This document shows, in pieces, positions 1,636 to 64,000 of a stretch of DNA of 64,000 nucleotides. A program made the position numbers and the translations under genes. The number at the start of each line of letters is the position of its first letter. Within the stretch, counting starts at the first letter, position 1. Source of the DNA: Cephalotus follicularis (taxonomy: Eukaryota > Streptophyta > Magnoliopsida > Oxalidales > Cephalotaceae). The DNA is taken from contig BDDD01002113.1 in assembly GCA_001972305.1 (NCBI GenBank), forward strand, positions 66,225-130,224, given 5' to 3'. A model generated the notes under the pieces. It made no database searches. It was given only the letters and a program-made list of their open reading frames with translations, and was not told the origin of the DNA.

Positions 1636-1897
1636 AAAGCGTCGACTCTTTATATTTAAGCGTCGACGGTCACAGCCTTTACCTGAGTTTTTCACCTCTA
1701 TCCCGACTAAAGCGCTGACGCTTTCTTACAAAGCGTCGACGCTTTAAGTCTTCGTCCAAGTCAACTGACACATTTCACTTCAACGCGTCGACGTCTAAAT
1801 TTGGACATCGACTGTTACCCAAAGCGTCGACTCTTTCAATAAAACCGTCGGCGCTTTAGACAATTTTGTCAACTTTTAGCCTTTTAGATCGACGTTT
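1636..1897. repeat. Palindromic GTCGAC cluster (GCG..CGC arms) in family A LTR
   Basis: About eight copies of an imperfect palindrome of the form AAGCGTCGACGCTT, spaced roughly 15-50 bases, some degenerate. The cluster lies 239-500 bases inside the LTR start, upstream of the TATA-like site, so in U3. Confidence 0.85.
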
Positions 1898-1940
1898 TCA
1901 GCATGTCATTCATCCAAAACAAATAGCCAAATAAAATTTT

Positions 1941-2062
1941 CTTCTGGGGGCGCTACCCCCCGAACCCTCGCCCACTGACCGGGTAGCGGGACCCCCCGTC
2001 CGCTCACCGGGGAGCTAAACCCCCGTACTCCCCGAGCGTAGGGTCATACTATGGGTCCCTTA
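1941..2062. other. GC-rich module in family A LTR
   Basis: A strongly GC-rich block in an otherwise AT-rich LTR, with GGGGGCGCTACCCCC able to fold on itself and a conserved AGCGTAGGGTCATACTA. The same module is at 15298-15392 in copy 2 but absent from copy 3 (48768-50905). No ORF; function unknown. Confidence 0.7.
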
Positions 2063-2237
2063 AACTATCTGCCAATTTATACAATAGAAATCATATTCCA
2101 TAATTAATATCTTTACTGGAAATCCGGGTCATTACAATGCAATGCAACCATATGCTCAAACATGCCTAGAGTCATTTCTAGAATCGTTCCGGAGCCAACG
2201 GGTCCAAATTGGGTCAAACCATACAAACAAGGAGGAA

Positions 2238-2775
2238 AGACGTCGATGCTTTTCCTCAACACATCAATGTTCATCGCCCCAAAAGCGTCAAGGTTTATCT
2301 TCAAGGTCAGTGCTTGCAACAGTACGAATCGCGTCGACGTTTTTTTCTGTAGGCGTCGATGCCTATAAGCCAAAACCCTTGGGCGTCGATGTTCATCACA
2401 ACGCATCAACGTTTAAGGTAGGAACCTTAACACGTCCTCACGTTATGTGCAAGACCTAATGCGCAGCTACCAAAGACGTCGATACCTTCCATAGACGTCG
2501 ACGTTTAAGTGGTATCCAATCTCCATTCCAAGGAAGAAAACATCCTCCATCCACGCATGCAAATTTCCAGATGCATTACTCACAGCGTAACACGCACAAT
2601 AGGTTATTCATATGTATAACAAGATCATCAACCCATCAGCAATCCATGAAGTCCAAAAGTAAACATTGCATTCTGCAAATGTTTGAAATAGACATCGACG
2701 CTTAACTAAGACGTCGACGTCTATTGCCTCATCGCATAAAGACATCGATGCTTACCACAAGAGCATCGATGTTTA
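2238..2775. repeat. Palindromic cluster 2 of family B copy 1 (GACGTCGATGTC type)
   Basis: At least twelve copies of imperfect palindromes such as AGACGTCGACGTCT and AGACATCGATGCTT, downstream of the LTR promoter region. Position corresponds to the CAGTCGACTG cluster at 27451-27626 in another family B copy. Confidence 0.85.
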
Positions 2776-3537
2776 AGAGCCCAGAACACTGTCTCTTCCA
2801 TACAACACCCAAACATGAACATAAAATCCAATTATACATGCAATCTAACATGGGATTCACACAGAAATCAACATGCATGCATTGTCCACACAACCAGGTG
2901 TTCATATTATCAACCAAACATCTAAATCAACTCCAAAACAGGCATGCAATTCATGCATTCTATTCATGGCAAAACATTAGCTTTGAACTCAAATGTGTAC
3001 ATATACTTCCCCTACCTATAGTTTCATGTTAGAAACCTTGTAAGTCCACCTCTTTGTGTTCCCAGAATTGGTCACAGCAGCTTCAAGGTTGTCCCGTTGC
3101 TGCAAGCTATCAGCTCCAAGCTCCCAAGCTCCACTGGTTCAACAATGGTGGTATTCCTCTTTCACACTCACTGTTTCTTTCTTTTCCTCTCCTTAGGTGT
3201 TTTAAACGAGAGAGAGGGGTGGGGATGGGGTTGTTCTTATGCAGATGGCTCTCTCTCCTTCTTTCTCTCTGCACAAAATGAACTCTCTCGTGTCCTCTCC
3301 CTCTTCCCCATTCAATTTCTGCAGTCTAACTTTGTTTCCTTCTCCTCTTCTTTTGCAGGTTGCATGCATGCTAACACTTGTTACATTCTCCATCCCTCTT
3401 TAGTCATACAGGTCAGGAGGCTATTATGCATGCCCAACACGTCCCACTTTGTGTCCCAAGGTGCCTGCAACAAGTCCAGAATTGTCTCCCTTTGCACGTT
3501 ATTTTGTCAGTTCATAACGTGACTGATATTCTTCTCA

Positions 3538-3692
3538 AAGACATCGACGTCTTCTCTAGACGTCGATGTATTTTCCTCTTTCATACAAGGGTGTTGATGC
3601 CTTCGTCTGCATCGACATGCATGTGCATGCATTTACGTGCGCCCTTTGTTCCCATAGGCGTCGACATCTTTCCAAAGGACAACGACGCGTTT
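3538..3692. repeat. Palindromic cluster 1 of family B copy 1 (GACGTCGATGTC type)
   Basis: Five or six copies such as AGACATCGACGTCTTC, 187-341 bases from the LTR start. Position corresponds to the CAGTCGGCTG cluster at 28404-28559 in another family B copy. Confidence 0.85.
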
Positions 3693-3879
3693 AGCCCAAA
3701 ACTATACCGTTTTGCCTTTTCATGCCTTGAATCATTTCTTTATCCTTTTTCCTCCCAAAGGTTAACATTTTAAATTTGAAAAACGCCATCAAGGTCAGGA
3801 ATCAGACGTTCTTATTAAATCCGAAATAAGATTCCAATCAAATTGAAATATCACATGTGCAAAAATCTCGGGCGTTACA

Positions 3880-5499
3880 ATTACTCACATGAATGGAGCG
3901 GCTCCTTCCTTCTTCCTATGTGTCTTCTTACTTCCAAAAGCACAACTACTTGTTGAATGTATTAAACGGTTCTAGCTTCCAACTATAGAAAGCCTCCAAG
4001 GTATCCACACCAAGCTTTAGTCTCCAACACTATTGCTTCACAAGTAATCAACACTTGATTGTATGAGAGAGCGAAAGAGAGAGGCAGCTAGGGTTATGGA
4101 ATTGTCAAAATGTCTTAATTGTGAATAGGGAGATGTGTTTATATATTAGCTACTAGACTAATCTCACTTAAAAACAATCTCCTATTAAGCCATCCCTTTA
4201 TCTTAAAAGAAATTCTTTTCTTTTAAATTTCTTTCTTTCTTTAATATAATTAATCTTATTAATTATATTTATATATTTAATCTCGTTAAATATATTTATA
4301 TATTTAATCTCATTAAATATAATTAGGAAATAACATCCCAGTTATTTTTCTCTCATCGCGTATTGGAAATATTAGCCCCGTATTGTGTGTGACCCCATGG
4401 ATTCACTATTATGTTGGCCATAGGATTGATATTGTGACGCTCACAATTATTCGATTAAATATGTATTATCACATAAAAAATATTATCTCGAATATTTTGA
4501 ATTAAAACTCTTTTAATCCTTTTCTTCTAAGATTAATTTATCAATTTAATCTTGGGCATCCTACTGGTTGACATCGACATCTAGCAATGAATAACGACCC
4601 CCAAGTAATATGAATAATTTACGAACCACTATTTACAGGTACATGCACGTGTATTCCTTCCATTGACAATGCTCTAATTAAATCTATGGTACGGATTATG
4701 TCAGACCCCAATAATTTAATCTTTAGCCTCATGACTATCTTTCATTAGTCTAAATAATATTAGAGCTGCCCCTCTAATATTCAACCAATGATATCGCACT
4801 CTTGATATCGTGGCTAGCCTAGCCAGGCATTTGATTGCTAGCAAAAATCATCCTGAGCATAATCTTCTTTTACTAGAAGCAATGGATTCATTATTGCCAG
4901 TTCACATGCCTCCATACATAAGCGTAATATGTCCAACTAATGCATGTATACACTTCATAGAATATGTATTTAAGCATCATCAAAACACAACACCCTATGC
5001 ACAAGACATCCAGTGACGGCTCATGTCCAAGGACCACATGCACTGCTGTAAAACTAGAATTATGTCTGACATGCAAGTAAAAATCCATATAGATATTCTA
5101 TCAACAGTCACCCTCAATGCACTCATAAAATGAGCAACCATGTAGTTGTCATAGCATCATTCATGCGAGTGAGTGTGAGATCAGTCACCCTCTGCTTACC
5201 GATCTGACAGTATGTGCTGGTCTGTCCGGATTGATCATGCCCTGAGTGTCAATCCTATGACCAGGAAGTTTCAAAATAAAGTATACCAAGATTCCAATTC
5301 TCACATCATGATCTCATCATGAACTTGGTTCTCTAACTTTATTCCAGGACATTCATTTACAATTAATTAATCATGTATTAATTAAACGAACTCATAGCCA
5401 TTGATAAAACATAAACATCTTTATTGAATTTATAAATCGTTTATCCAAGATAAAGTAAATACAAGGTCGACATTGGCTCGCAGCACTTCATCTCTAACA
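3880..5499 (-). repeat. Copia-1 3' LTR (partial)
   Basis: On minus it starts TGTTAGAGATGAAG at 5499, directly after the PPT. It aligns along its length with 17823-18369 plus 44450-45518. The last roughly 165 bases (equivalent of 17658-17822) are missing because the family B LTR is inserted at 3879. Confidence 0.88.
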
Positions 5500-5509
5500 A
5501 TCTCCCACT
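5500..5509 (-). other. Copia-1 polypurine tract
   Basis: Minus strand AGTGGGAGAT immediately before the LTR start, the usual Copia plus-strand priming site. Confidence 0.85.
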
Positions 5510-5514
5510 AAGTG

Positions 5515-6193: not shown

Positions 6194-6327
6194 TGTAACG
6201 CCCGAATTTTTCGTGTATTGTATTTCACAATGTAAATGTACTTTATTGTGGAATTAATAAAGTGATGGTTGTTGCCCTTAAATCAATTGTGTATTTGAAG
6301 TGTGATTGCTTGGGGAAATTACTGGAG

Positions 6328-6482
6328 GCAGTCAACTGGTATGTAGGGCTAGCCGACTGAATGGCTGCATGTGGGGGCAGTCGACTGGTGGGATGAACCA
6401 GTCGACTGGCCAACTGTCATGACACCTGGCAACAGACTGCCAGGCAAACAGCCGACTGCCAGGGGAAAGGCAGCCGACTGGA
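6328..6482. repeat. Palindromic cluster 1 (CAGTCGACTG type), family B solo LTR
   Basis: About eight copies of CAGTCGACTGG and variants (CAGCCGACTG, CAGTCAACTGG), 134-288 bases from the LTR start and upstream of the TATA-like site. Confidence 0.9.
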
Positions 6483-7304: not shown

Positions 7305-7564
7305 GCAGCCGACTGTCGAAGCAAGACAGTCGACTACTCATTGATTCCAGTCGACTGCCAATGGAAAGCAGTCGACTACTCATACTCCTCCCTGCCCAGA
7401 AGATGAAATCTGGGAAACTTCTCGTGTGTAAGTACTGGAACAGTCGACTGTTGAAGAACAACAGCCGACTACCTAATGGACAGTCGACTGGTAGAAGGAA
7501 CCAGTCGACTACTCATACTGCTCTACCCAGAACAGTCGACTGGTGAGGATTCCAGTCGACTGGT
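7305..7564. repeat. Palindromic cluster 2 (CAGTCGACTG type), family B solo LTR
   Basis: About ten copies of CAGTCGACTG or close variants at 20-40 base spacing, about 590 bases downstream of the TATA-like site, so in transcribed LTR sequence. Confidence 0.9.
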
Positions 7565-14899: not shown

Positions 14900-15259
14900 A
14901 AAGCGTCGACGTTTTCGCTCTAAGCGTCGACGGTCACAGGCTTGACCTGAGCTTTTTCACCTCTATCCCGACTAAAGCGCTGACGCTTTCTTACAAAGCG
15001 TCGACGCTTTCTTACAAACCGTCGACGCTTTTAAGTCTTTGTCCAAGTCAACAGACACACTTGACTTCAAAGCGTCGATATTTTCATTTAGAACGTCGAC
15101 CGTTGCCCAAAGCGTCGACTCTTTATCCCTAAGCGTCAACGGTTAGAGGCATATTTCCAATTTGCCCTTGCACTGTTTAAAGCGTCGTTAGGGGGGGTCT
15201 AAGCATCGACCGTTACTACCCAAGCGTGGACGCTTTAAGTACAACTGTCGGCGCTTAAG
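14900..15259. repeat. Palindromic cluster (GCGTCGACGC type), family A copy 2
   Basis: About twelve copies of AAAGCGTCGACGCTTT-like palindromes, 205-564 bases from the LTR start and just upstream of the TATA box. Confidence 0.9.
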
Positions 15260-15464: not shown

Positions 15465-16161
15465 GTGGTGGTATCATCCCATTTTTAGTCTTCCCCTTCT
15501 CAAGGTTGGACTTGCCCTTCATGTTGGGCCTATGGGACTGCCCTACCATCATGACTGGTGCCTTGCCCTTATTCATGTTCACTTCGGCTTCCCTCATAAT
15601 GTTTAGAAGATCAGGCATAGTAGCTGATATCCTATTCATGTTAAAATTGGTGATGAAACAAGAGAATGGAGGTGGAAGCGAATGAATGAAAAGATTTGTG
15701 CTTAATTCAGCATATTGAATGATGCCAAGAGCAGCAAGATGTTCAATCGCATTGATCATCTTAAGCACATGATCACTAACAGAAGATCCTTCAACCATTT
15801 TAGTGCCATATAGCTCAGCAGTGAGCTAGAACCGAGCATTCCTACTAGTTTCTCCGTATATCTCGTGGAGATGTAGGAGAATTTCCCTAGAGTCTCGCAT
15901 CGATTCATGCTAGACTTGTAGGGCATTGCTCATCGATGCCATTCAGTAGCTTCTGACTTTCTTTTTATCAGCCACCCATTTCTTATAAATGGCATAATCT
16001 TCGATTGAGGCATCTTCAGCAGGCAGTGCTGTCATAGGAGCCTCTAAGACATAATCTATGTCCTCGGAATTCAGAACTATTCTGACATTCCGTAGCCAGT
16101 CCATATAATTTGGACCTGTCAACTGATTCTTCTCAAGAATTACAGTGACGGGGTTTGTCAT
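15465..16161 (-). pseudogene. gag: Copia-1 gag, capsid part
   Basis: Starts at ATG 16161 (MTNPVTVILEKNQLTGPNY), matching the usual Copia gag opening with its LTGPNYxDWLRN motif; the longer in-frame upstream Met at 16209 lies in leader sequence. It continues through MVEGSSVSDHVLKMINAIEHLAALG and FNMNRISATMPDLLNIMREAE, typical gag-polypeptide (UBN2-type) segments, with stops near 15945 and 15800. It is cut at 15464 by the family A solo LTR; the zinc knuckle follows beyond it. Gag forms the virus-like particle; this copy is broken. Confidence 0.87.
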
Positions 16162-17640
16162 TGCGATTTCTGCAGATATAAAATAAAAACAATATTCAGA
16201 TAAATTCAATTTAAATGTTTATAACCATAAAGATTTGGTCTTTAATCTTTAGGTGTTTTTCCTCTCAGGCTCCCACTGTTTTATGCGAATCCCATAACCC
16301 TCAAATATTATTGGAGACGAGAAATAACAATCCAAGTCTCACGAATCTTATTTCCGAGTGGGGATCAGTGTCCTACAACATATTTAGTATAACCTTGACG
16401 GGGGCCAAAACGCTATACTGAATCTTGTAGTTACACAAACTCTTGCCAACCTTATAATAGCATGATTCCCGATCATCGCTTTTGCCTCTAGTCTACACAT
16501 GACCTTGACAGGGGCCAAAACGTCATATGTATTCCAGTCAAGTTTAACCTATCATCCAACACACAATGAATCAATGAATGTGAATCTTGACGGGGGCCAA
16601 AACATTCACTTTCACAATTCATATGTATGTACATCTCATGTTCAACTCATATAGATGTTCCTAGAAAATCTCAAGAGAAAAATTTAGACATGCATCACAT
16701 ACATACTATAATCTAATGACAGGTTATGGACTTTTACTACTGTAACTTTTTTGACTCTCAAACAAGCTGCCGGTCTCATTCCTAGGTATGTTATTACAAT
16801 CATATATTCACTCCCATACATGCATGGGTCTTGTAATATCTTGGTTCTCCTCCAACTTTCTTCCACTGCGACACTCGCTCTTCAATTACATAAACCAACT
16901 ATAAACTACAGAAACCTTGAAATAAATCAAGGGGAGTTACAAGGAGGTGAAGAAGAATTATAGATACAAATTAAGAGAGAGAAGAAAGATATACAAGTCT
17001 CAAAATATTACAACCCAGAAAATATGAAAAATAAAAACCATACATTCAACACTTGAATAAAATAAGACAAACTAGGTCAAGTCCATAGCCATACCATCAT
17101 GCATAATCAATCTCATTGAATTAACAAATAAACTTGACGGATATGTTTCTACAAATATAGACAATTGATTGGGTAATTAACTGAAAAACTCTTTTTCGTA
17201 ATTTTAACGCCAGAGCGTCGATGCTTTAGAACAAAGCGTCGACGTTCATGCGTTGTGCTTCGACGCTTGCGTCGACGCATCCTTAAGGGTCGAAGCTATC
17301 GTTGAGTGAAGGCACAGTATTAACGTCGTAGGCATCGACGCTTTAGAGAAAAGCGTCGACACTTTAGCGCCTAAGCGTCGACATTTTTCTCAAAAGCGTC
17401 CTCGCTTTAGCGCCTAAGAGTCGACGCTTTTCTCAAAGGCATTGACGCTTTATTCGTCTTCGTGCGATTATGTAGTGGTATCACGCGCAGACGTCGACAC
17501 TTTTCTAGAAGGCGTCGACGATTTTGTGACTATAGGGAATCACAAATTTGCATCCCATTCTTCCGTCTCACAGATTAAAACCAAACAATTCAAGCATATC
17601 ATCAACAAACATGTTTCTAACTATATATATGCATCAAATC
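16162..17640 (-). other. Copia-1 5' leader
   Basis: About 1.5 kb between PBS and gag without a supported gene. It holds three direct copies of CTTGACGGGGGCCAAAACG or close variants (16394-16412, 16504-16522, 16586-16603) and a GTCGAC palindrome cluster (17213-17524). Confidence 0.75.
17213..17524. repeat. Palindromic cluster (GCGTCGACGC type) in Copia-1 leader
   Basis: About a dozen copies such as AAAGCGTCGACACTTT, GAGCGTCGATGCTTT and GGCGTCGACG. It lies outside the LTR, about 130-445 bases downstream of the 5' LTR. Confidence 0.88.
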
Positions 17641-17654
17641 TGGCTCTGATACCA
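17641..17654 (-). other. Copia-1 primer binding site (initiator tRNA-Met)
   Basis: Minus strand TGGTATCAGAGCCA, three bases inside the 5' LTR end, complementary to the 3' end of plant initiator tRNA-Met. Confidence 0.93.
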
Positions 17655-18369: not shown

Positions 18370-19288
18370 TGTAAGAGCCCTAAATATTATAAAGTATTAT
18401 TATTGGGCCTTGGAATTCCTTTCTCTCCTTTGGGCCGAAATGGGTAAGGTATTAAGTAATTTTGGGCTTGAGGAATTGTTCCTTCCTTGGGCCGGTTTTT
18501 TAAGTGATGTGTAATTGGGCTCAAGAATGAAGTGAAGAGAAAGAGGCCCAATGGTTGAAGTCATCCCAGGCATGTTGAATGGCCAATTGGAGGAAGTCGG
18601 CCCAAGATGTTAGACATGGCCTGCATCCGTTGGAATGGTCTAAAGAGTTATGGAACATTCTCTCATGTGAATAAGAGGGAATGAACACCTGGGAGACACG
18701 CTTTTTGGCATTTCTTGCATGCTTCGACTTGAAAGATCGAGAAAAAGGCGACAATAGTGGGAGATAGGGCCAGATGCCGGAAAAAGGAAGAAGAAGACAA
18801 GCAGGGGGCCTTCCTCAAAAGAGTCCCTGCTCACATATATAAATACCATCTCCTGGAAGTGAAGAAATTGTACAAGAGAGTCGGATGAGACTAGCTGAAG
18901 CGTGTAATAGTCCTCGGCAAGGAAGGAGCCCAGAACTAAGTGAGGAAGAAGACTTTCTCCATTTCCAACCATCATCGAGGTAGGTTGCTTCATGTCCGAG
19001 CGCCTGCCAGCATGTGTATTTGTGTGTAGTGTTGTTGTTTTGTTTTATTGTTTGAATGTGTGTGTTGTTGTGTGTTATTTTTGTGATTGTTTGTGTTTGT
19101 TAGACTAGGATTCTACCCTTCTCTGTCGAAATTGAAACCCGACCATGCCTCAGTGCTTGCAAAGCACTTAGAGATGAAGTAAATGCTTGGAGTGGACTAT
19201 GTGTCTGACCTGAGATAGTGCGTCCGAGGAGGACTATGCGTCCGACCAGCACTAGTATGACCAGGGAAGATTACGCATCCTACCAGTA

Positions 19289-19620
19289 AGGATCCATGTT
19301 GCCGGAGGAGCAACTACCCGAGGATCCATGTTGCCCAAGGAGCAACTACCAAAGGATCCATGTTGCCTGAGGAGCAACTACCCGAGGATCCATGTTGCCC
19401 GAGGAGCAACTACCCGAGGATCCATGTTGCCCGAGGAGCAACTACCCGATGATCCATGATGCCCGAGGAGCAACTACCCGAGGATCCATGTTGCCTGAGG
19501 AGGAACTACTCGAGGATCCTAACATGGCTTTCTCCTGCCATTCGGCAGAGGATCCCAACATGGTCTTCCTCTGCCAACCGTCCGAGGATCCCAACGTGGT
19601 TCTCCTCTACCACATATCTG
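19289..19620 (+). repeat. 32-bp and 36-bp minisatellite in Tekay-like 5' LTR
   Basis: Seven tandem 32-base units starting AGGATCCATGTTGCCCGAGG (each with GAGCAACTACCCG), then three related 36-base units starting AGGATCCCAACATGG. The 3' LTR has only four of the 32-base units (43213-43340) and three of the longer ones, so copy number changed between the LTRs. Confidence 0.9.
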
Positions 19621-19784
19621 AGGACAGTCAAGCCAAGTAAAGGATAAAGTATTGCACCATAGTAGCGCCAAGTCGGACTAAGGGTCCGAGGATAAGCAAA
19701 ATTCCTCCTCTGACGAAGGACATAGGACGAATGATGAAACCCTACAGTAGGTGAGCTTAATGAGCGAATCCACATAGGAAGTGT

Positions 19785-20030
19785 CCCAAGCAGTGAACCC
19801 CTGTGAGGAGAATTCTGCCAAGTAGGTGAACCAAATGGGTGAATTCTGCTGGGTAGGTGATCCTCAGCTGAACTAGCTAAAGGGTGAGCCTAAGGGTGAA
19901 TTCCGCTGATAGCAGGTGATATCAAGGGTGACATCCGCGAAGCAGGTGAGCAAAGGGTGAATTCCTCTCGTTAGGGGATCCCAAGAGTGAATTCCGCTGG
20001 CAGGTGATCCCAGAGGTGAACCTTATAGAT
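19785..20030 (+). repeat. Degenerate 30-base repeats (GTGAATTCCGCT) in Tekay-like 5' LTR
   Basis: About seven irregular units around GGGTGAATTCCGCTGG-AGGTGATCCCAA, repeated at about 43613-43855 in the 3' LTR. Confidence 0.8.
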
Positions 20031-20619
20031 GACCAGACCATAGGATACCGGACTTGACTCCTTTGCATAATGTTTATGATTTGTATGGTTTGAGTAGAGT
20101 AGTCCGAGGACCAGGGATGGCATAGGTATCATGATATCGTGGCCTGCTCTTATATTATGGTATGAGTGCATTCTTTTTCCTCTACATCTTGTCCTCTGCT
20201 TTTTGGTTGTGTTCCTGGTATGTGTCGAGCATGTGACTCCTACAAAACCACTGCGTTGCTGACCCATTCTCTGTAATGGGTCAGGTTAAGGTACAGGCCC
20301 AGGCATTGGCGGAGGATCCCAGCAGCGGCAAGGATAAAGAGAAGAGTAAGTCCTGCTCCTCGACAGTGCGCTCCTGCAGTCGAATTTTACAAGCAATATT
20401 TATGTATTTGGTTTTAATAATCTGCCGGGCTGTGGCAGTGTATTTTTATATGTATTATTTTGGAATTGGGTATATATATCCTACACTTTAAATAAATGGT
20501 TTTGTATGAAGTTTTTATTTGGCTGGTTTTTGCATACTGGAAACGGATAAGGAAAAATGTATGGATTGCCACGTGTCGGGTCGTGGGGACCAACCCACGA
20601 TTCGGGACGTGACAAGTTT

Positions 20620-27450: not shown

Positions 27451-27626
27451 CAGTCGACTGTTCTTCCCCAACAATCGACTTGTTCATCACGAGTAATCAG
27501 TAGTCGATTGTCTTCCTTCGACAGTCGACTGTTCTAGGCAAGAACGCATGCATAGTCGACTATTCTTACTTGACAGTCGACTGGATGATCGAGTAGCCGA
27601 CTGTTTTACTTAAACAATCGGCTGTT
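27451..27626. repeat. Palindromic cluster 2 (CAGTCGACTG type), family B in Tekay-like gag
   Basis: About nine copies of ACAGTCGACTGTTC-like palindromes; the cluster begins at 21990-22015 and is split by the family C insertion. Confidence 0.9.
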
Positions 27627-28559: not shown

Positions 28560-28725
28560 AAGCCAAAATTCCCATAATTATGCTTAGAATCACACTTCTG
28601 AATGCTCTAAGTTAATTTAAATTCAAGATATCAACCAGGAAATGCACCTTTTATTAATTCAAGGTAAAAACTACATCGAGGATTACAATAATACATGAAA
28701 TCGAATTTTCGGGCGTTACAATACC

Positions 28726-42244: not shown

Positions 42245-44444
42245 TGTAAGAGCCCTAAATATTATAAAGTATTATTATTGGGCCTTGGAATTCCTTTATC
42301 TCCTTTGGGCCGAAATGGGGTAAGGTATTGAGTAATTTTGGGCTTGAGGAATTGTTTCTTCCTTGGGCCAGTTTTTGAAGTGATATGTAATTGGGCTCAA
42401 GAAGTAAGTGAAGAGAAAGAGGCCCAATGGTTGAAGTCGGAATAGGCGTGTTGAATGGCACAATTGGAGGAAGTCTGCCCAAGTAACAAGGAGAGGAGGA
42501 TTGATCCAATAGGAGGAGGTCGGCCCAAGACGTTAGACATGGCCTACACCCATTGGAATGGTATAAATAGTTCTGGAACCTTCTCTCATGTGTATAAAAG
42601 GGAATGAACACCTGGGAGACACGCTTTTTGGCATTTCTTGCATGCTTCCACTCGAAAGATCGAGAGAAAGGTGACAATGGTCGGAGATGGGGCCAGATGC
42701 TGGAAAAGGGAAGAAGAAGACAAGCAGGGGCCTTCCTCGGAAGAGTCCCTGCTCACATATATAAATACCATCTCCTGGAAGTGAAGAAATTGTACAAGAG
42801 AGTAGGAAGAGACTACTTGAAGCGTGTAACAGTCCTCAGCAAGGAAGGAGCCCAGAACTATGCGAGGAAGAAGACTTTCTCCGTTTCCAACCATCATCGA
42901 GGAAGGTTGCTTCATGTCCGAGTGCCTACTAGAATGTGTATTTGTGTGTGGTGTTGTTGTTGTTTTGTTTGATTGTTTGAATGTGTGTGTTGTTGTGTGT
43001 TTTTCTTGTGATTGTTTGTGTTTGTTAGACTAGGATTCTGCCCTTCTCTGTCGAAATTGATACCCGACCATGCCTCAGTGCTTGGAAAGCACTTAGAGAT
43101 GAAGTAAATGACTAGAGTGGCTACGTGTCTGACCTGAGCTAGTGCGTCCGAGGAAGACTATGCGTCCAACCAGCGCTAGTGTGTCCAGGGAAGATTACGC
43201 GTCCTACCAGTAAGGATCCATGTTGCCCGAGGAGCAACTACCCGAGGATCCATGTTGCCCGAGCAGCAACTACCCAAGGATCCATGATGCCCGATGAGCA
43301 ACTACCAGAGGATCCATGTTGCACGAGGAGCAATTACCCGAGGATCCTAACATGGCTTTCTCCTGCCATTCGTCGGAGGATCCCGACATGGTCTTCCTCT
43401 GCCAACCGCCCGAGGATCCCAACATGGTTCTCCTCTACCATGTATCTGAGGACAGTCAAGCCAAGTAAATGATAAAGTACTACGCCAGAGTAGCGCCAAG
43501 TCAGACTAAGGGTCCGAGGATAAGCAGAATTCCTCCTCTGCCAAAGGACATAGGACGAATGATGAAACTCTATAGTAGGTGAGCTTAATGAGCGAATCCA
43601 CATAGGAAGTGTCTCAAGTAGTGAATCCCTGTGAGGAGAATTCCGCCAAGTAGGTGAACCAAATGGGTGAATTCCGCTGGGCAGTTGATCCTCGAGTGAA
43701 CTAGCTAAAGGGTGAGCCTAAGGGTGAATTCCGCCGATAGCAGATGATCCCAAGGGTGACATCCACGAAGCAGGTGAGCAAAGGGTGAATTCCGCTAAGC
43801 AGGGGATCCCAAGAGTGAATTCCGCTGGTAGGTGAGCCCAGAAGTGAACCTTATAGATGCCCAGACCATAGGATACCGGACTTGACTCCTTTGCGTAATG
43901 TTTATGATTTGTATGGTTTGAGTAGAGTAGTCCGAGGTCCAAGGATGGCATAGGTATCATGATATCGTGGTCTGCTCTTATATTATGGTATGAGTGCATT
44001 CTTTTTCCTCTGCATCTTGTCCTCTACTTTTTTGTTGTTTTCTTGGTATGTGTCGAACATGTGGCTCCTACACAACCACTGGGTTGCTGACCCATTCTCT
44101 GTAATGGGTCGGGTTCAGGTACAGGCCTACGCATTGGCGGAGGATCCCAGCAGCAGCAAGGATAAAGAGAAGAGTAAGTCCTCCTCCTCGGCAGTGCGCT
44201 CCTGCAGTCGAATTTTACAAGCAATATTTATGTATTTGGTTTTAATAATCGGTCGGGCTGTGCTAGTGTTTTCTTATATGTATTATTTTGGAACTGGGTA
44301 TATATATATCCTACACATTAAATAAATGGTTTTGCATTCATTTTTTATTTGGCTGGTTTTTGCATAATGGAAATGGATAAGGAAAAATGTACGGATTGCC
44401 ACGTGTCGGATTGTGGGGCCCAACCCACGATTCGGGGCGTGACA
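42245..44444 (+). repeat. Tekay-like 3' LTR
   Basis: TGTAAGAGCCC...GGGGCGTGACA, aligned end to end with 18370-20614. TATA-like CATATATAAATACC near 42757-42770. Minisatellite with four 32-base units at 43213-43340 plus three longer units to about 43450, and GTGAATTCCGCT repeats at 43613-43855. Confidence 0.92.
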
Positions 44445-48767: not shown

Positions 48768-50905
48768 TGTAATGACTGGAAAATTTTGTTAAAGTTATAA
48801 GAAAATATGATTGCCATTGTTAAGGTTGGAAAATATTTTATAAGGCCCAGAAGAAAATTGAATTTAGATATTTGTTTTGGACTGGAAATTTTGTTGAAGT
48901 CATTGTTATATGGTTGTTCTAGGGCTTGTAATGTGAGAAAACGTTTTGCGCATGTTTTGCAACGTTGAAAGCGTCGACTGCCAAGAATAAGCGTTGATAG
49001 TTTACAAAGCGTCGCTGCCTATTTTAAGGTGTCGACAGTTTGCCTTGGTTATGCGGTGAAATGCCTTAAGTATCGACTAATTTCAAGACAAACGTTTTAG
49101 CCTAAAAACGCCGACGGTTTTAAGCGTTTTTGTCGACAGTTAAAGCCCATTTTCTTTGTTAAGGCGTTTAACCGGCGACGCTTCGTGGTCTAAGCGGAAG
49201 AGCTTTGAGACTTAAGCGGCGACGCTTTGCTCATAACCTCCGACGCTTTAAGGAAAAAACTTGGAAATACTGGCGTTTTTGTCGTTTAGCGCGTTAATAA
49301 TTTTAAGAAAGGACGAGTGTCGCCAAACAATTGAAGGAGTGAAGATATTGATTTTTTTAAGCAGAAAACGACAAATCTAAGGCGGCTTTCACTTCCTATA
49401 AATACAGGTGAGTAGAACGTCTTAGTGCAGTAGTAATTTGGGCTGAAGTTACTGAGAGAAAGAGAGTCTGAGAGTTTGAGAGAGAAAGAGGAGAGAAAGA
49501 AAAGAGAAAGAGAGAAATAAGTAGAGAAAAGAGGAGAAAAGAGAGGGAAAGTTCTGCTGAAATTACTTCAGTGTAGAAAAGAAGAGAAGGAGATTAAAGC
49601 AATGTAAGGAAAATCTTATTTTCACCAAAGTATTTTATTCCATTTTTTTAAAAGTATTAAATGTTGTATTTTTTGATATTTTGTTATGGCTTTACTTACC
49701 AGTTAAAATTTACGAATTCGTTGAAATATTTACGTTAACTTTATTTATGAATTTTAGCTTTCTAAATTCGTTGAGAAATTTACCATAATGTTAATGCTTT
49801 AAATTTTCTCTGAGAATTATACAACAGATTATCATGCTTTATGTATTCAAAAATTCTGTCAATTTCTTGATAAAATTATATGTTTAGATTTCGTTATGAA
49901 AGATATGATTTTATCATTTTACTGTTTTACGTTGCTATATGTAAACTCAGTTTTACAAATGTTGTACGAATTTATTTTTATGAATGCTTTGAGCTGATCA
50001 CTCAAAGTATTTAAGAAAATGATATATGAAATGTGAAAATGTAATGAACTGAGATGAACAACTACTAGATTGTGATATAGGGAGGATTAATCTAGACAAG
50101 GATTAATGTTATGAGCAGAGAGTGCTCACGGACATGCATGTGATGTAATGATAGTAATCGGGGAGTGAACAATGCCCCGGTGAAGTAATGGTTCAATTGG
50201 GTTATTTAAGGTTATACAACCCCTCAGTTATTTATGAAATGTTCTGATTCATGAGATATGATCAGAAAATGAAATGAAATGTTCTGTTTCATGAGATATG
50301 AACATAAAAGGAAATAAATGTGAAATATTTTGGTTTTCATACCAGAAAAAGAATTTTAATGATGTTTTGTTTTCAAGCATGATTATGTTATATGCCGAAA
50401 GAATGTATGATTTGAAATCATTTTGATATAAAGATCATCAAAAAGGAATTTCGTTAACATTTTTTTTATAACTATGATTCTTATTGGGCTATTTAAGCTC
50501 ATTTCTTGCAATATTTTGTTTTCAAATAAAATTTACAGGAGGTGATTGACGTGGAAATTTGGACTTTAGAGGAAGCTCGGAAAGCATATCTTGAAAGAAA
50601 TTATGTTATACATTAATGTTTTATATAAACTGTTGTTGATGTAATAAGTTAATATTTTTCCGCTGTGAAATGAATCATGATGATGTTATCAATGAACGTT
50701 AAAGTTTATGATGATTTAAATGAGAGTATGATGTTAGAAAGTTTAATATAGAAAGTTGCAAATTATGTATGAGATTATGAGAAGTTTGATGAATATTAGC
50801 AATTAGTAAGATTGTTAAAAGATTAAAAGATTTACCCCCACGTCACGCACTGAATCCTCGAGATTCGCTTTGAGCTTAAAGTGAACTCAGATCGGGGGTG
50901 TTACA
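48768..50905 (+). repeat. Family A solo LTR, copy 3
   Basis: TGTAATGACTGG...GGGGGTGTTACA with perfect TSDs AGCAT (48763-48767, 50906-50910). TATA box CCTATAAATACAGG near 49392-49405, then a GA-rich transcribed stretch (49450-49600). Lacks the GC-rich module of copies 1 and 2. No gene. Confidence 0.93.
48967..49250. repeat. Palindromic cluster (GCGTCGACGC type), family A copy 3
   Basis: About ten degenerate copies (AAAGCGTCGACTG, AAGCGGCGACGCTT, CTCCGACGCTTT), 199-482 bases from the LTR start and about 140 bases upstream of the TATA box. Confidence 0.85.
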
Positions 50906-52175: not shown

Positions 52176-53511
52176 TGTTGACATTTATGCATTGCAATCT
52201 TGGTTTTGATGATAACAAAGCACCTAACTTATTTGTTGATGTGAAGGATAGTTTAAATGAAACAAACAAGTAAAGTTGCAAGTTAAACAAGCAAAAAATG
52301 CAGAAATATGCAGAACAGACCTATTGGCGTTAACGCCTAGATCATTAGCGTCAACGTGCTGGGCTTGATCATGTGTTCTGGGTTTTGTAAGATGATTTTG
52401 GTCAACATGCTGATTATTCTCGTCAACGTGTTGAGTATTATAATATTGGCGTCAATGCCAAAAGATGCAAAAAATCAGATAGTGACTTAAAAGTTAACGT
52501 GAAGACATATTGAGGTCAACACCTATACTAAAGTCGTCAACGTTATCGTTAGGCATCAACGTCAAAACTAGCAAACCTATGCTGAAGACGTCAACGATAA
52601 CATTAGATGTCAATGCAAAAATGTGAAAAAATCTAACAGTAACTTAGACGTTAACGCTCAAGAAGAATGGAGTCAACACAAAGAACATTTGCGTCAATGC
52701 CATGAGTACACGTTAACACAAATAAAGCAAAAATCAGACAGTAGCTAATGGAGTCAACGCGGAGAACCAAAGGAGTTAACGCACAAGGAGATAGACATCA
52801 ATGCCATGTGTAAACGTCAGCGCCCAAGACAGCCAGACACATAAATCTGCAAGATTTGGAGGTGCTAAAATGGTGAGAACTTTCCATAGATGATTCTAAT
52901 GGCTTCTTGATGATTTCAACGGATATATGACTACATGAAGCCTATAAATAGAGGACTGATTCAATGGTGAAGAACAAGAAAACAACAAGCAACAAAGTCT
53001 ACAATATTTTGCCATTGTCAAAGCTTTATTTGTGATATTCTCACTTTGAGTTTTTGAACAATATTGTTTTATCATCCAACCTTTTTAGAGGTTTCCAAAG
53101 ACACAAACAACTTTCTGAAAATCATTTGTGTATACCCCAGGTTGTTAATACATGAATCAAAAGTTATGATTAAGCTATAAAATCCAAGTTAGGATTTCTA
53201 TTGTAAAAATCCAGAAGTTAGATTTAGCTTGTAAAAATCCAGAAATTAGGATTGTGATCGGGGGATTACGAACCTAGTGGAACCTCAAGTGCTTCTTGGG
53301 AAAGTGGACGTAGGCATATTTGGCTGAACCAATATAAATTGTTTGCAATCTCTCTTTCCATACTCTTTTATTTAATTGCGATTTATTATTGTTAGAATAA
53401 TTGATTGGTTGATTGTCTATCTTGTTTGTATTGATCATTAAAATTGAAAAATAGGTTTTTATTTCCGTATAACCTATTCACCCCATCTAGGTTGCTATTA
53501 GTGGACCTACA
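52176..53511 (+). repeat. Copia-2 (Sirevirus-like) 3' LTR
   Basis: TGTTGACATTTATGC...GTGGACCTACA, with the ATTCACCCC...CTAGGTTGC end common in Sirevirus LTRs. TATA box CCTATAAATAGAGG at 52941-52954. It aligns in opposite orientation with 60845-62128, for example around GGAAAGTGGACGTAGGCA (53300-53320). The element's left side lies out of view. Confidence 0.87.
52325..52826. repeat. Palindromic cluster (GGCGTCAACGCC type), Copia-2 LTR
   Basis: About eighteen copies such as TTGGCGTTAACGCC, GCGTCAACG, AGACGTCAACG and ATGCCA-flanked variants, 149-650 bases from the LTR start and about 115 bases upstream of the TATA box. The core is GTCAAC or GTTAAC rather than GTCGAC. Confidence 0.88.
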
Positions 53512-54289: not shown

Positions 54290-56832
54290 TGTAACACCCC
54301 GCGCCCGCAAAACGGACACGTGGCATTACTCTCAATCCAATAACAATACAATGGTCGGGACTAGCAATATAAAAATACGGAAAAACTTAAAATTTTTCAA
54401 TACATATCATTAAGCGGAAGATACAAAACAACAATCCATCCTTACTGTACAATACAATACAATCCTTTACAATACCAATCTTTTACAATACACTTATCAA
54501 TTCTTCAATACAACATCTAAATACAATACATTTCAATCATTTCACTACAATATCTCACAACCAACTCTACGATACCCAAGCAGTCGTGCGATCAAATTGA
54601 GTCTTCAGTTCTTATGTCCGCTGCTACCTGCTGCCCTACCTATGCCGCACACAAGGTACAACACAGCCCCACACCAAAGGATAGGGTTAGCCACACTGGC
54701 TAAGCAGAAACCTCATGCAGCATGTATGCATGTACAATGTGCAATATCGGTGACAATCTATACAATATCAATGTGTGGTGTACAATATCAATGCATGACA
54801 TGGAAAGTGCATATGTACAGTTGGCGATCAGACTACCCGTATGACAATGGCCCATAACAGAGCATACGGATAGGATCTATAACAATCAATCAATGGCAGA
54901 CACTCAATGGTGGTGTATAAAACACCCAATCAATCAATCAATATACAATATAATGTCAATCAATTAGCAGTGATCAATCCCACGGAAGGTGGTCCTTCGA
55001 AAAAGGTGAGAGATCAACCTATTATCTCAAACTGATCAGGTTTGGGACTCATAGGTCTTCCAGCCTAGGGCTGGGACAATACAATATCGATGAGCTACAA
55101 CCATGGGGGAACTACTATACCGTTAGGGAGCTACGACCCTCCGGGAGCATCAATCGGTACCGCTCGTCAGCGGGTCAATACAATAAATGAAACGATCGAT
55201 GGAATAGGTGGACAGAGTCAACCTAACATTCCGACGTGAATCATAAGCCCGCTCTATAGGATCCTTACAATAAAATCAATTAATCAATCAAGTCAGTACA
55301 ATGTCAAAGCAAAGTCAATAAGTGGTTGTGTCTAATGGAGAAATGGGAACGTGCGTCCACTTTACCAACTTAGACTCGCAGCAACACTTATGACTCAAGC
55401 AATCGATCACTGTATCAATACAACGTCGACGCAAATCCAATAAGTGGTGGTGTCTAATGGAGAAATGGGAACGTGCGTCCATAATACCGACTTAGACTCA
55501 CAATAACACTTATGACGCAACAAACAGATAATCGATCAATCAATCAGTAACCGCGAGGCGGTGACAATCGAATCGACGGAATAGGAATGAACATCTATTT
55601 GGTCAATGAAAGTACTGGGTCGTCACCTATGGCACAAGATGTCACTCTATCAATCTATCTATTCTATCTTTGAAAACCATTGAAAACTGTGTTTTAAACG
55701 CTTTAATACCTCAAGTGAGGCCCCGGTCAAGCGGCAATGTGAAAAGGGTTGAAAAACCAGCTTTAACAGTTAAAAACTCCACTTAGCCTGAAAGGCGTCG
55801 ATGTCCTTGGCCAAAGACATCGATGCATATCAGGGCATTCCTTTTAAAACGGTAGAAGGACGTCGATGTCTTTGAAAGACATCGATGTCCTTCTCAATTT
55901 GGCCGAAGACGTCGATGTCCTTGGACAAAGACGTCGACGCATTTCAATAAAAACAGCCCGGGAATGCGCATCGATGTCTCGCGTCGATGCCTTCTTTGGG
56001 GAAAGGCATCTGAAGAAAAAGACAAAGACATCGATGTCTTTGCTGTGAAATCAATGAGGCTGCATCCCAAAGTGAAAGACATCGATGTGTATGGGCAAGG
56101 GGATCGATGTCTTTGCTGGGAATGGCCGATTTTTCTGCGGAAAACCAGCAATTTTCAAGCCAAAATCCAATCCAAACCCATTCTTTAAGAAATCAAGGGT
56201 TAAAATCATTCTTTAAGGTTAGTAAAACTAGTTACAACATTCTATTTAACATTTCAATCTTTCTATTAACAATTAGGTCAAGGATTTGCTAAAACCCTAA
56301 AAACCCCAATTCATTCAATACACTCAATTCAATCATTCAATACAATCAATTCAATTCAATCACGCAATACAAGCAGTAGGCAATTCAGTAAGAAGTCCTA
56401 CCTATCACTGAAGCTTCAAAAGTTGAGCTTCCAATCAATCGATCTACAGAAATCGCCCAATAACCCACTACTTTCTTGTTCAATCGGTAACCCACAACTT
56501 GCAATCAGTATCCTTGTGGAAGGAGATGTAAATCTGGCTGCTAGGGAGATGGAGGGAGGCTGTCAGCAAGAGAGAGAGAGGGAGAAAGATAGAGAGAGGG
56601 AGAAGAATGAAAGAATGATAGGATGATAGTGAGAACTTGACTTATAAAGTCAATTCGATCAACTCTCCGAAACTCTGCCCAGAATCTCGACTATACATGC
56701 ATATAACCAATACAATATCAATAGGTATAGGAATACCTCAATACAATACAATACAATACAATACGATCCGATACAGTACAATACCGTACAATGTATGCAT
56801 GAACAGTACCAAAGGGAATTCGGGTCGTCACA
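54290..56832 (-). repeat. Element 4 3' LTR
   Basis: Minus TGTGACGACCCGAATTCCC...GGGGTGTTACA. TATA-like TTTATAAG (minus) near 56641-56649. A CAATA run at 56734-56765, a tandem duplication of about 122 bases (units from about 55316 and 55438, with GTGTCTAATGGAGAAATGGG) and a palindrome cluster at 55791-56115. No gene. Confidence 0.88.
55791..56115. repeat. Palindromic cluster (GACATCGATGTC type), element 4 LTR
   Basis: About eleven copies such as AAAGACATCGATGTCCTT and AAGACGTCGATGTCCTT, downstream of the TATA-like site in transcribed LTR, 717-1041 bases from the LTR start. Confidence 0.9.
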
Positions 56833-56845
56833 TTCTCCCCTCCTT
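56833..56845 (-). other. Element 4 polypurine tract
   Basis: Minus AAGGAGGGGAGAA directly before the LTR start TGTGACG. Confidence 0.88.
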
Positions 56846-56886
56846 AAAAAAAATCTGGTCCCCAGATTCATCGGTCAATCGATCAA

Positions 56887-59228: not shown

Positions 59229-59243
59229 AAACCCCTGGCATCC

Positions 59244-59700
59244 CTATCGTAACAATCTGTCCGCATGCAAAGCCGAAATCATCGAAACAAACAATGGCTC
59301 TAAGGTGCCAAGAAACCGAAAAGGTGGTCGTCTCGGAGGACTGAAAACCACTACTTTCCGATGACAAACCACCTGAGCAAAGCTAGCAGACAACCAATCC
59401 ATGCCAAGAATCACATCTAGGCTATCCATCGGTAAAATAATAAGATCGGCTAATAAGCAACGAACATCAATCTCTACAATACAATCTCTACACACTCGAT
59501 CGGTGGTCGCTGACTCACCGAGAGGTGTGGATCCTCCATCAAGAAAGGAAGGTATTCGGGTCTCAAACCAACATGGGAGACAAAATGCAATGCAATGAAT
59601 AAATGGGATGAACCCGGATCAATAAGAACCCATGCTAGAAGCTGAAAGAGTCGAATGGTACCTCTAATCACAACATCTGACCCTGCTGCAGCACTCGATT
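59244..59700 (-). pseudogene. pol: Element 4 protease
   Basis: VQARVFAM-type lead, VVIRGTIRLFQLLAWVLIDPG then SSHLFIALHF: active site D-P-G-S where D-T-G is usual. Then CIVEIDVRCLLADLIILPMD, DVILGMDWLSASFAQV and FRFLGTLEPL. A frame change lies near 59480-59495. Aspartic protease that would process Gag-Pol. Confidence 0.88.
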
Positions 59701-60782: not shown

Positions 60783-60844
60783 TAAAGCAATACCATGAAT
60801 AGATAAGGACCTACATCATGAGAATCCATTCAGTCAATCTCAAT

Positions 60845-62128
60845 TGATATAAAACACTCTTGCAATATACAAGAGGGGGGGTGAATTGAATATTGAAGTA
60901 AATGCGGAAATTTAAAAACTTTAAATGTAAATAGACAAGGAAAGAAAAACTTGTCCGAAATTTAGAGTGGTTCGGCTAACTCTTGCCTACGTCCACTTTT
61001 CCCAAGGGAGCTCCTTGAGTTTCCACTATCTCGATTTGATTAAGGCAGCAAATCGTTACACCTCACAATTTCGTGATTGACCTCAATCACAAGACTTTGA
61101 CCTCAAAGCCTTAGAGGATTCTCCTCTTTTACAAGTAATATGAAAGTGTTTTACAAGAACCTCTTAAAGTAGGTTGATGTGAATAAGTATAGCTCACAAA
61201 ATGAAACACTCAGATACACTCAAAGAAAGAAGCTTAGAAGCTTTGTTGAACAATGTAGAGCACTTTGAGCTTTTGGCACACTAGATAGCTTGAATTGGAT
61301 TTCTCTTGATGTTGTGTGATTGATGTAGATAATTCTGAATTGTAGTAGTTATTGGTTTTTCTTCTGAGGTTTCATGCTTCCTTTTATAGCCTGAAAAGGT
61401 TTATAGCCGTTGCTTAAATTGTGGAAGCTTTTGATTAAAGAATGTGAGTTGCATTTGTTGAATTTTATCTCTGCTGGTGGAAAGACGTCGACTTCTTTGA
61501 GAAAGGCGTCGATGTCTTTTAGCTGGTAGCCGTTAGAAGTGGTTAAACTAGCCGTTCCAGGTTTCCCGGGTGTTGTCCATTTGAAAAGGCGTCGACTTCT
61601 TTTTGAAAGGCGTCGATGTCTTTTCTGGGAAATCTCCAGGTCTTGTAGTTTGAACATCACATCGATCTCTATCCTTGGAGTCGATGCTTTTTCTGGGAAT
61701 GTTGAAAATGACGTCGATCTCTATTTCAAGGCGTCGATGTCTTTTGCTTAGACGTCGATGTCTTTTGATTAAGGATCGATGTCTTTGAGTGCATTTTGAT
61801 ACAGAAGCTTCTGTCTTGAAAAATGACTAAACACGTCGATGTTATCACTGAAGTAGTCGATGTCATCTTGAAAGTAGTCAACGTCTTCTGGAAGTAGTCG
61901 ACTTCTTTTGGTACGGACGTCGATCTCTATTACTGGGAGGACGATGCTTTCTTTGCAGTTAATCCTGTACAAAAGACGTCGATGCTATTTGTAAAGGAGT
62001 CGACTTCTTTTTCTGCAGATTGGTTTTTAGACTTTGATATTCAACTTGTAATTCCTTGCACATCAAGTAACTTAGTTAGATGCAAATATGTTATCATCAA
62101 AACAAGGATTGAGACTTAATTGTCAACA
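60845..62128 (-). repeat. Sirevirus-like LTR
   Basis: Minus TGTTGACAATTAAGTC at 62128 to GAGTGTTTTATATCA at 60845, with the ATTCACCCCCCCTCTTG end typical of Sirevirus LTRs. TATA-like GGCTATAAAAGGAAGC (minus) at 61376-61391. It aligns with the Copia-2 LTR outside the palindrome cluster. The flanking pentamers (TCAAT, AATCA) do not match, so it is treated as the 3' LTR of an element extending right. Confidence 0.85.
61481..62010. repeat. Palindromic cluster (GACGTCGATGTC type), Sirevirus-like LTR
   Basis: About eighteen copies (AAAGACGTCGACTTC, AAGGCGTCGATGTCTTTT, GTAGTCGATGTC), 118-647 bases from the LTR start and about 90 bases upstream of the TATA box, the same place as the differently built cluster in Copia-2. 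Confidence 0.9.
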
Positions 62129-62308
62129 AATCATTCATATAATTGTAAACACAATTCATAAAACACAATCATAAACACAATTAACATAAACATTTCATTA
62201 ATATCATTAATTTAAAACTTGTTCATTACATCCAAGGGAAAAACAATGAACACAAGGGTTCATAGCAACATCAAAACAACAATAAAAAAAACAAACAACA
62301 TCAAAACA
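62129..62308. other. AT-rich spacer between ORF and LTR
   Basis: No gene, and no clear purine tract next to the LTR start where a PPT is expected; either diverged or not the original element junction. Confidence 0.6.
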
Positions 62309-63619
62309 TCAAGACTCAGCAGGAGTGGAATCATCGGATGCGGATTCATCTCCCGAAGTTTCTTCACATTGATCAATTGTCTTTGATTGAGCAAGCTTCC
62401 TTTCTATCCTCTTTAAACGTCTCTTCATGACCTTTAAATCATAAAAGATAGTGCCATCAATGTGTTGGAAGTCCTTTTGAATTACTTTATGATCACCTTC
62501 CAATCGATTGAGCCGTGAGTTGACTTCTTGAAGAGAGGCTTCCATGGCAGAAAATTTTGCTTGCATAAACTCCATCATGCGATCGTAGTCAGTGGAGGAT
62601 GATGTTCCTTCTGCATGAGGTTGAGCAGGGGCAGATGGTGCAGGGGCATTTTGTTCCCAAGGAGGGTTGTCCTCTTGCTCCTCCCTTGCAAGTCTTGGAG
62701 CTTGATCCGCTCTAGGCACATATGTCCATACTCCTTGCTCCTTCTTCCATCCCATAAGATTTAAAGTGCTTTTGTTGTACGTGTCTTCCTTTTTCAATTT
62801 CGTAGATATCTCTCCTTCAAGAGGAATGTGATAGTGTAGGAAGATAAGTGTGAGAATGGATCCGTAAGGAAGGACCGATTTCTTTTGAGAGAACGCTCGT
62901 ACCATTGTTTTGAGAATCAAGAGAGGGAAACAAAACTCAATCTTCGATAGGATGCACCACATTATAAACACTTGCATCCGAGACAATTTGGCATACCCTC
63001 CACCGGTGGGTAGAATTTGATGCACGATGAGGTGGTGGAGGAGCCGATGATCAACAGACAAACAATTGGTTGTAAGAGCCATGTTAGGATGAACGTTTGG
63101 ATCATTGGGATACAAAATCGAGAGAATTTGGTTAGGGTGAAAACCCTCAACCTCCGGCCATTTTTTATGTTCGAAGACATAAATGCCGGTGTGTGGAATG
63201 TGGAGGATTGAAGCTAGAATCCTAGCATCAAGATACATTCGTTGACCTTTAACAACAGATGTGATGGCAAATTCTTCGTTTTGAGCCGAAACCATTTTTA
63301 GGTTAGAGTAAAAATCTTTAACCAATTTTATGTAAAAAGGGTTAGAGATTTGGACAAGAGGGAGTAAATGTAGGTCATCTAACCATGAAACAAACGAGAA
63401 TTCGGAGGAACAGAAATCAAAATCGATGTTTCTGCCTCCCATTACCCGTTTCTCAACAAAACTTAGGGTTTTAATCGGAACAGGGTGTTCGGATGAGGAA
63501 TCGGAGTGGGAAGACTCAGAAGATGATTCCCTAACCTCTAATCTCTGCTTTTTAGTAGATTTCTTGGGTTGAGAAGACGAAGGAGCCTGCTTTTTGGTAG
63601 CTCGCTTTGTCCTTGGCAT
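62309..63619 (-). CDS. Sirevirus-associated extra ORF (plant transposon protein, Transposase_32-like)
   Basis: An uninterrupted 436-codon ORF, the longest real one here. Start ATG 63619 (MPRTKRATKKQAPSSSQPKK) follows a long pyrimidine-rich leader. Residues 1-50 are basic and serine-rich, perhaps with nuclear signals (KKSTKKQR). Residues 60-300 are a globular region with the cues of the 'putative plant transposon protein' family (FYSNLKM, MYLDARILASILHIP, PNMALTTNCLSVDHRLLHHL, and a hydrophobic LILKTMVRAF stretch). Then comes a proline-rich linker and, at about 345-412, a likely coiled coil (MMEFMQAKFSAMEASLQEVN, RLKRIERKLA), ending acidic and serine-rich. It precedes a Sirevirus-like LTR in the same direction, where Sireviruses often carry an extra ORF. 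Function is unknown; an envelope role is not shown (no signal peptide or clear C-terminal membrane segment). Family call from memory of motifs. Confidence 0.65.
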   Translation of the reverse strand: MPRTKRATKKQAPSSSQPKKSTKKQRLEVRESSSESSHSDSSSEHPVPIKTLSFVEKRVMGGRNIDFDFCSSEFSFVSWLDDLHLLPLVQISNPFYIKLVKDFYSNLKMVSAQNEEFAITSVVKGQRMYLDARILASILHIPHTGIYVFEHKKWPEVEGFHPNQILSILYPNDPNVHPNMALTTNCLSVDHRLLHHLIVHQILPTGGGYAKLSRMQVFIMWCILSKIEFCFPLLILKTMVRAFSQKKSVLPYGSILTLIFLHYHIPLEGEISTKLKKEDTYNKSTLNLMGWKKEQGVWTYVPRADQAPRLAREEQEDNPPWEQNAPAPSAPAQPHAEGTSSSTDYDRMMEFMQAKFSAMEASLQEVNSRLNRLEGDHKVIQKDFQHIDGTIFYDLKVMKRRLKRIERKLAQSKTIDQCEETSGDESASDDSTPAES

Positions 63620-64000
63620 ATTGACAAACAGTTTGTGTGCACAAGGGGAAAGAACAAAGATTGAAACAAACAGTGGATTTGGACAGACGAAAGACGATGT
63701 TTGTAGAAGAAAAGAGATAGGAGATGATTTACGATCGACTTAGAAAGATTTTTGAAGAAAAACAGAAAGATTGGAAAATTTTTGAAAATTTGAAAAACAG
63801 AGGGAAAGTGAGAGATGAGCAAAATGTTGACTTTTTATGAAGAAGTCGAGTTCTGGGGAAAAGACGTCGACGTGATTCCAAAAGGAGTCGACGCGAATTT
63901 AAAAATTGGCTGTAAAAATGTAAAAACGGTAAAGGAATCGACGCATTTGAAAAAGAGGTCGACGTGTTTTAGAAAAACACATAGGGATCGACGTTTTTCA
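63620..64000 (-). other. Leader of the extra ORF, with palindrome cluster
   Basis: The 240 bases before the ATG are CT-rich without ATG-led ORFs, like a 5' leader. A possible TATA-like TTCATAAAAAG (minus) is near 63830-63840. GTCGAC-type motifs (AAGACGTCGACGTG, GGAGTCGACGCG, GGTCGACGTG, GGATCGACG) fill 63860-64000 and continue to the window edge. Confidence 0.65.

Follow-up and report, generated by a model that had tools for sequence, protein, structure and literature searches.

Helically phased palindrome arrays in Ty3 and Copia retrotransposons of Cephalotus follicularis, and a candidate partner protein of the PF20167 family

The DNA analyzed here (the window: 64,000 nucleotides, C2113:66225-130224 of the 1.577 Gb Cephalotus follicularis assembly) is densely packed, nested retrotransposon DNA. 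It holds arrays of short palindromes around a GTCGAC-type core, which we call boxes, in the noncoding parts of both Ty3 and Copia (Ty1) elements; in one Sirevirus-like element the arrays stand on either side of an additional open reading frame (ORF) of the PF20167 family. The boxes are dyad-symmetric in a family-specific way, phased with the DNA helix, and best conserved at their centers. Such clusters had been reported from the sequence in an initial annotation, and we found boxes in 12 of the 12 ranges that it gave as examples, the fewest by the pattern used being 3 (6328-6482) and 5 (48967-49250). GTCGAC occurs 53 times in the window against 7.0±2.7 expected (maximum 16 in 60 local dinucleotide shuffles), and perfect TCGA-centered palindromes of at least 10 bp number 26 against 3.7±2.1 (maximum 9 in the same number of such shuffles). 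The arrays and the ORF, with the long terminal repeats (LTRs) that carry them, are as follows.

1636-1897, minus strand: array A1, in a Ty3 family A LTR that starts near 2139 (homology to A2, orientation from locus L078)
2238-2775, minus strand: array D, within an LTR starting from 3879(-), where its first letters are the Ty3-like TGTAACGCCC; lineage unconfirmed
6328-6482, plus strand: array B1, close to the start of an LTR that belongs to Ty3 family B and spans 6194 to about 8882
7305-7564, plus strand: array B2, in the mid-part of the same B LTR
14900-15259, minus strand: array A2, about 210-570 bp into a Ty3 family A LTR that starts near 15465(-)
17213-17524, minus strand: array T, in the leader of a probable Copia element, downstream of the primer-binding site at 17654(-)
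27451-27626, minus strand: array B3, in a truncated second B LTR that starts at 28720(-)
48967-49250, plus strand: array A3, in a diverged LTR of family A
52325-52826, plus strand: array S1, in a Sirevirus-like Copia LTR, with boxes of GTCAAC/GTTAAC type
55791-56115, minus strand: array E, 717-1041 bp inside a Ty3 3' LTR that starts at 56832(-)
61481-62010, minus strand: array S2, in the 3' LTR of a Sirevirus-like element; this LTR begins at about 62128(-)
62309-63619, minus strand: additional ORF of S2, 436 amino acids, PF20167 (Transposase_32)
63860-64000, minus strand: array S2u, upstream of the additional ORF and interrupted by an assembly gap

As had been proposed, a common core is present in both Ty3 and Ty1 elements, namely in the Ty3 LTRs A, B, and E and in Copia T. 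By its domains in copy L002 (Retrotrans_gag, RVP_2, RVT_1, and SH3_Tf2-1, with a Chromo match of 23.0 bits just under the cut-off of 25.1), family B is a Ty3 chromovirus, presumably Tekay-like. Of nine B-array loci fetched (L001-L009), L001-L005 have direct LTR pairs of 2.5-2.7 kb, L006 has an inverted pair, L008 a shorter pair, and L007 and L009 none; between the LTR of L001 and the B LTR of the window at 6194 to about 8882, identity is 95.6% over 2.5 kb. Families A and E were assigned to Ty3 by tblastn to the L002 integrase only. In L078 the A LTR starts after a Ty3 integrase and an intervening polypurine tract (PPT)-like run, and PPT-bearing copies place the A LTR of the window on the minus strand. 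For E, pol (60749->56893), a PPT-like run at 56845, and the LTR start at 56832 follow one another on the minus strand. Array D may belong to Ty3, to judge from its LTR start alone; D and E were considered as a single family, which was rejected because their shared match is only 27 bp.

On the Copia side, copy L076 has a Copia gag and integrase further down on the same strand as the T leader, and since other insertions lie between, we infer that T belongs to that element. S1 and S2 we take to be Sirevirus-like from PPT and LTR-start features and from a presumed RNase H end before the ORF. In L014-L043, where PF20167 ORFs adjoin the 3' LTR, that LTR again carries an array of the S1 type. Among the S1 loci that have LTR boxes, at least 22 show mostly GTCAAC with few GTTGAC (L035 is reversed), a strand bias unlike random CpG decay of GTCGAC; such decay should give both forms, so the S1 boxes are not simply deaminated GTCGAC. 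The gap (Ns) that cuts S2u starts just past 64000, at the start of L010, and intact counterparts exist in other loci.

The arrays might be one satellite spread by simple insertion with identical flanks. This is not supported within the window: with 150 bp flanks included, clusters of different families matched locally over at most 79 bp (S1 LTR versus S2 LTR), so that flanks are not shared between families. Other matches were 62 bp at 73% for A2 versus T and 71 bp at 70% for E versus S2.

Arm positions are complementary in 50.3% of cases in 119 boxes, compared with 26.4% at 317 like cores outside the clusters. When right arms were dealt among all boxes, symmetry fell to 38.9±1.8%, with a maximum of 45.4% in 2000 shuffles. 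When they were dealt within each cluster, it was 49.8%, and 756 of 2000 shuffles reached the observed value. A symmetric box is therefore a property of the family, and compensatory change within single boxes is rejected. The proposal that one arm changes to match the other thus holds between families and fails box by box, while dyad-symmetric sites suited to a dimeric DNA-binding protein are supported in the form of family-specific boxes. Read by eye from the printed boxes, with no separate statistic, arm types appear to cross the superfamily border, A resembling T, and E and D resembling S2. In the upstream boxes of S2 and P0106 type (63860-64000, L044-L075), outer AAA and TTT flank variable inner arms.

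Neighboring boxes lie 19-23 bp apart in 48 of 93 cases, 28 of them at exactly 21 bp, whereas random placements gave 16% and at most 29% (n = 300); the 21-bp spacing is absent from cluster A3. Over pair distances of 15-130 bp the coherence at 10.3 bp was 0.508; in 200 simulations the best-of-scan null reached at most 0.182. It was found separately in the clusters filed as Ty3 (0.466, null maximum 0.341) and in Copia (0.596, 0.288), with one cluster per family (0.529, 0.254), and without neighbors, at 25-130 bp (all 0.430, 0.242; Ty3 0.390, 0.357; Copia 0.525, 0.348). Among single clusters it was strong in B2 (0.91), B3 (0.82), D (0.80), S1 (0.72), S2 (0.65), and S2u (0.58) and weak in A1, A2, and E (0.22-0.24). 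Cluster T was best at 10.6 bp (0.89; 0.25 at 10.3 bp), and B1 and A3 have too few pairs for single-cluster phasing. Five control site classes, with 19-110 pairs, gave -0.13 to 0.15 at 10.3 bp and 0.10 to 0.35 at their best period. A spacing of about 21 bp in phase with the helix implies that bound dimers would face one side of the DNA.

Regular spacing could also arise if the arrays were tandem repeats, produced by slippage of one symmetric unit and without current function. Tandem units of 21 bp are indeed present in S2, B2, and A2, and symmetry as a family property, unaltered by within-cluster shuffling, is what slippage would leave. However, of 257 box pairs, 120 lie near even multiples of 10.3 bp, 75 near odd multiples, and 34 in anti-phase, and the odd class is unlike 21-bp duplication. 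In addition, cores outlive spacers, box positions are maintained between subfamilies, and one rule is common to families that have no common flanks. We consider slippage very improbable as the explanation.

CpG is usually the fastest site to decay in methylated plant DNA. We compared the upstream regions of S2-type loci (15 of 20) with those of P0106-type loci (12 of 12); cores were 87.7% identical, arms 73.6%, and spacers 70.1%. CpGs in the cores were 92.3% identical (9 sites) and other CpGs 75.7% (14 sites). That the core CpGs were kept despite the decay expected of them points to selection on the center of the box.

Foldable RNA had been named beside a dimeric protein as a possible cause of the symmetry. 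Hairpins of RNA or DNA, serving packaging or small-RNA production, have been suggested for maize Sireviruses, whose palindrome clusters are reported to attract small RNAs (PMC10760457), and array T is transcribed, as it lies within a leader. Yet the would-be loop is the best conserved part, phasing at 10.3 bp has no rationale in RNA, and single-box arm compensation is missing. Phasing and a conserved TCGA center suit DNA binding better, so the protein-site half of that suggestion stands and foldable RNA becomes less likely; we regard hairpins as improbable.

Copia-type sequence borders the additional ORF on one side and a retrotransposon LTR on the other, a setting other than a VANDAL (Mutator-like) DNA transposon. 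A Cephalotus follicularis protein matches the open frame at 62312-63739(-) with 95% identity across 92% of the frame, and all 120 homologues listed (of 329) belong to this species. A genome search for PF20167 gave 13,073 first-look candidates, of which 150 places were scored; the S1 loci are the best 30 of those 150 (L014-L043). To these we added 20 S2 loci (84-96% identical) from the 97 places that the window ORF located, and 12 loci from the 94 located by P0106, whose protein sequence shares 70% identity with the window ORF. An array precedes the ORF in 29 of 29 S1 loci (L015 omitted), 18 of 20 S2 loci, and 12 of 12 P0106-type loci, compared with 0 to 1.6% in shuffles, and 23 of the 29 S1 loci have a downstream array as well. 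The 29 include L018, whose upstream array comes from an inserted LTR. This locus had been taken for a Sirevirus-like ORF with CAGTCGACTG boxes, which was rejected; the boxes are part of a B-like LTR that inserted close to where the ORF begins.

The palindromes might instead be insertion targets for the nested retrotransposons, with no regulatory role. Plant LTR retrotransposons have a weak preference for palindromes (PMC6911290), and the window is heavily nested. That paper itself treats the preference as slight, and insertion would leave both the phasing and the arrays at fixed sites before the ORF unexplained; we find this reading highly implausible.

The protein of the S2 ORF is predicted to consist of a VANC21-like globular part and a 70-residue C-terminal helix. 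The fold search covered the PDB only, with only the top-ranked Foldseek chains realigned (436 and 123), so that likeness to other families is possible. No sequence link between the additional-ORF protein and VANC21 was found. An analogy with VANC proteins had been drawn from the motif arrays, and the predicted fold lends it suggestive structural support.

TATA-like motifs occur 20-225 bp past A1, A2, A3, D, S1, S2, and S2u (no chance model was applied) and once past B1; none lies within 350 bp past B2, B3, T, or E. Dyad symmetry, phasing, the conserved center, and these motifs fit cooperative binding of dimers at promoters. At roughly even chances, we favor the explanation that the arrays are cooperative sites for a dimeric DNA-binding protein with a role in anti-silencing or transcription, most likely the protein of the PF20167 ORF, and that the Ty3 boxes are look-alikes. 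A dimer would bind the palindromes cooperatively, with neighbors on the same face of the helix; the PF20167 protein, predicted to be VANC21-like, would sit both on the LTR of its element and on the promoter that drives its gene; and binding would keep the element transcribed or unsilenced, which is the role of VANC proteins in VANDAL elements. The Ty3 families whose boxes match would be passengers that use this protein, or a host factor, in trans, for which AT9TSD1, an element carrying VANC6 motifs, is a precedent (PMC5735166).

The promoter context is also expected if the arrays are enhancers for host transcription factors, dimeric paralogues that recognize a TCGA core and differ in arm preference; the ORF would then be a separate matter, its promoter having acquired the same enhancer. 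Family B in L002 has arrays without an additional ORF, and the boxes of Bousios 2010 (PMC2829016) hold mainly stress-factor sites. In that work internal box copies were seen in nine elements bearing env and are lacking in four without it, a difference that host enhancers leave unexplained, though a simple ORF promoter fits. The predicted VANC21-like fold of the array-flanked ORF is likewise unaccounted for. We regard host factors as a possible, somewhat less than probable, source of the arrays.

Palindromes as such are not new for Sireviruses. Bousios 2010 (PMC2829016) had already described the RM boxes, palindromes that lie in the LTRs of Sireviruses and again ahead of the gene in the env position; like the boxes here they are high-copy, and symmetry is kept while sequence is element-specific. 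The Vitis box CGGTCGACCG includes GTCGAC, and the Tnd-1 box ACAATCGATTGT includes ATCGAT. S1 and S2 share with RM boxes the palindromic LTR repeat and the copies upstream of the ORF. In contrast, the CGG-CCG signature of all RM boxes but Tnd-1 is replaced here by cores of RTCGAY or GTYRAC/GTCAAC-like type, and RM boxes were reported to be Sirevirus-specific, whereas arrays here are also in the Ty3 LTRs A, B, and E. Our boxes are helically phased and their ORF is PF20167 with a VANC21-like model; the excerpts of PMC2829016 make no mention of a periodic arrangement, helical and spacing terms appearing only in reference titles. Ty3 arrays, phasing, and a putative VANC-like partner did not appear together in the searched listings of openly licensed literature. 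Motif sharing between unrelated elements has a precedent in maize, where no motif is more common in the structured regions of Helitrons than the palindrome of Sireviruses (PMC10760457). Taken as a whole, the first interpretation is partly upheld, in its dimer-type sites, the presence of boxes in Ty3 and Ty1, and the VANC analogy, and not in box-by-box compensation.

The VANDAL/VANC system (Hosaka et al. 2017, PMC5735166) shares with the present one an element-encoded protein whose element also has arrays of short motifs outside its coding sequence, motif types that diverge between related families, and motifs that occur also in an unrelated element; a likeness in fold is tentatively predicted. 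VANDALs are DNA transposons and the carriers here retrotransposons, and the VANC21 and VANC6 motifs (YAGTATTAY, AGTTGTCC, AGTTGTAC) are non-palindromic and in a single orientation, unlike our boxes. Binding and demethylation have been demonstrated for VANC; the PF20167 protein is a candidate binder. A VANC21 structure was announced as unpublished (2022 meeting report); a paper on it was not found in the openly licensed literature. In sunflower Athila (PMC11728184), likewise a plant LTR retrotransposon, the additional ORF also encodes PF20167 and its product is predicted to be nuclear, but the element is Ty3, the ORF lies 3' of pol, and the excerpts mention neither arrays nor VANC likeness. Retand (PMC11963269) has an extra protein, predicted to bind DNA, that is encoded within a region of short tandem repeats; that protein, however, is Transposase 28 (PF04195), antisense, in another Ty3 lineage.

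We put forward tentatively, and hold rather less than probable, the wider proposal that Sirevirus-like elements own a VANC-type anti-silencing system, in which an ORF protein of VANC-like fold would dimerize on phased palindromes in the LTR and its own promoter, site preference would diverge between families, and Ty3 elements would have acquired sites for use in trans. The VANC21-like model for a protein encoded between arrays links the role of the arrays and that of the ORF in one testable system. If the proposal is true, element-encoded anti-silencing extends from DNA transposons to retrotransposons, and box types common to Ty1 and Ty3 would imply a single regulator exploited by unrelated parasites. 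Helical phasing is a simple test applicable to any plant genome.

Element C (18370-44444) is a Ty3 element with LTRs at 18370-20614 and 42245-44444 that are 86% identical; a scan of the window showed no box array in them. Both contain an array of a 32-bp unit (19289-19519, 7.2 copies; 43213-43347, 4.2 copies) that includes GGATCC and is unrelated to the GTCGAC boxes. Element C appears to have landed within Copia element T, interrupting sequence that runs unbroken in another copy (3879-5495), and to have taken up further insertions itself. An A LTR in locus L077 has at its extreme end a Ty3 element whose short LTRs (55-797 and about 4950-5230) contain boxes of the CAGTCGACTG type.

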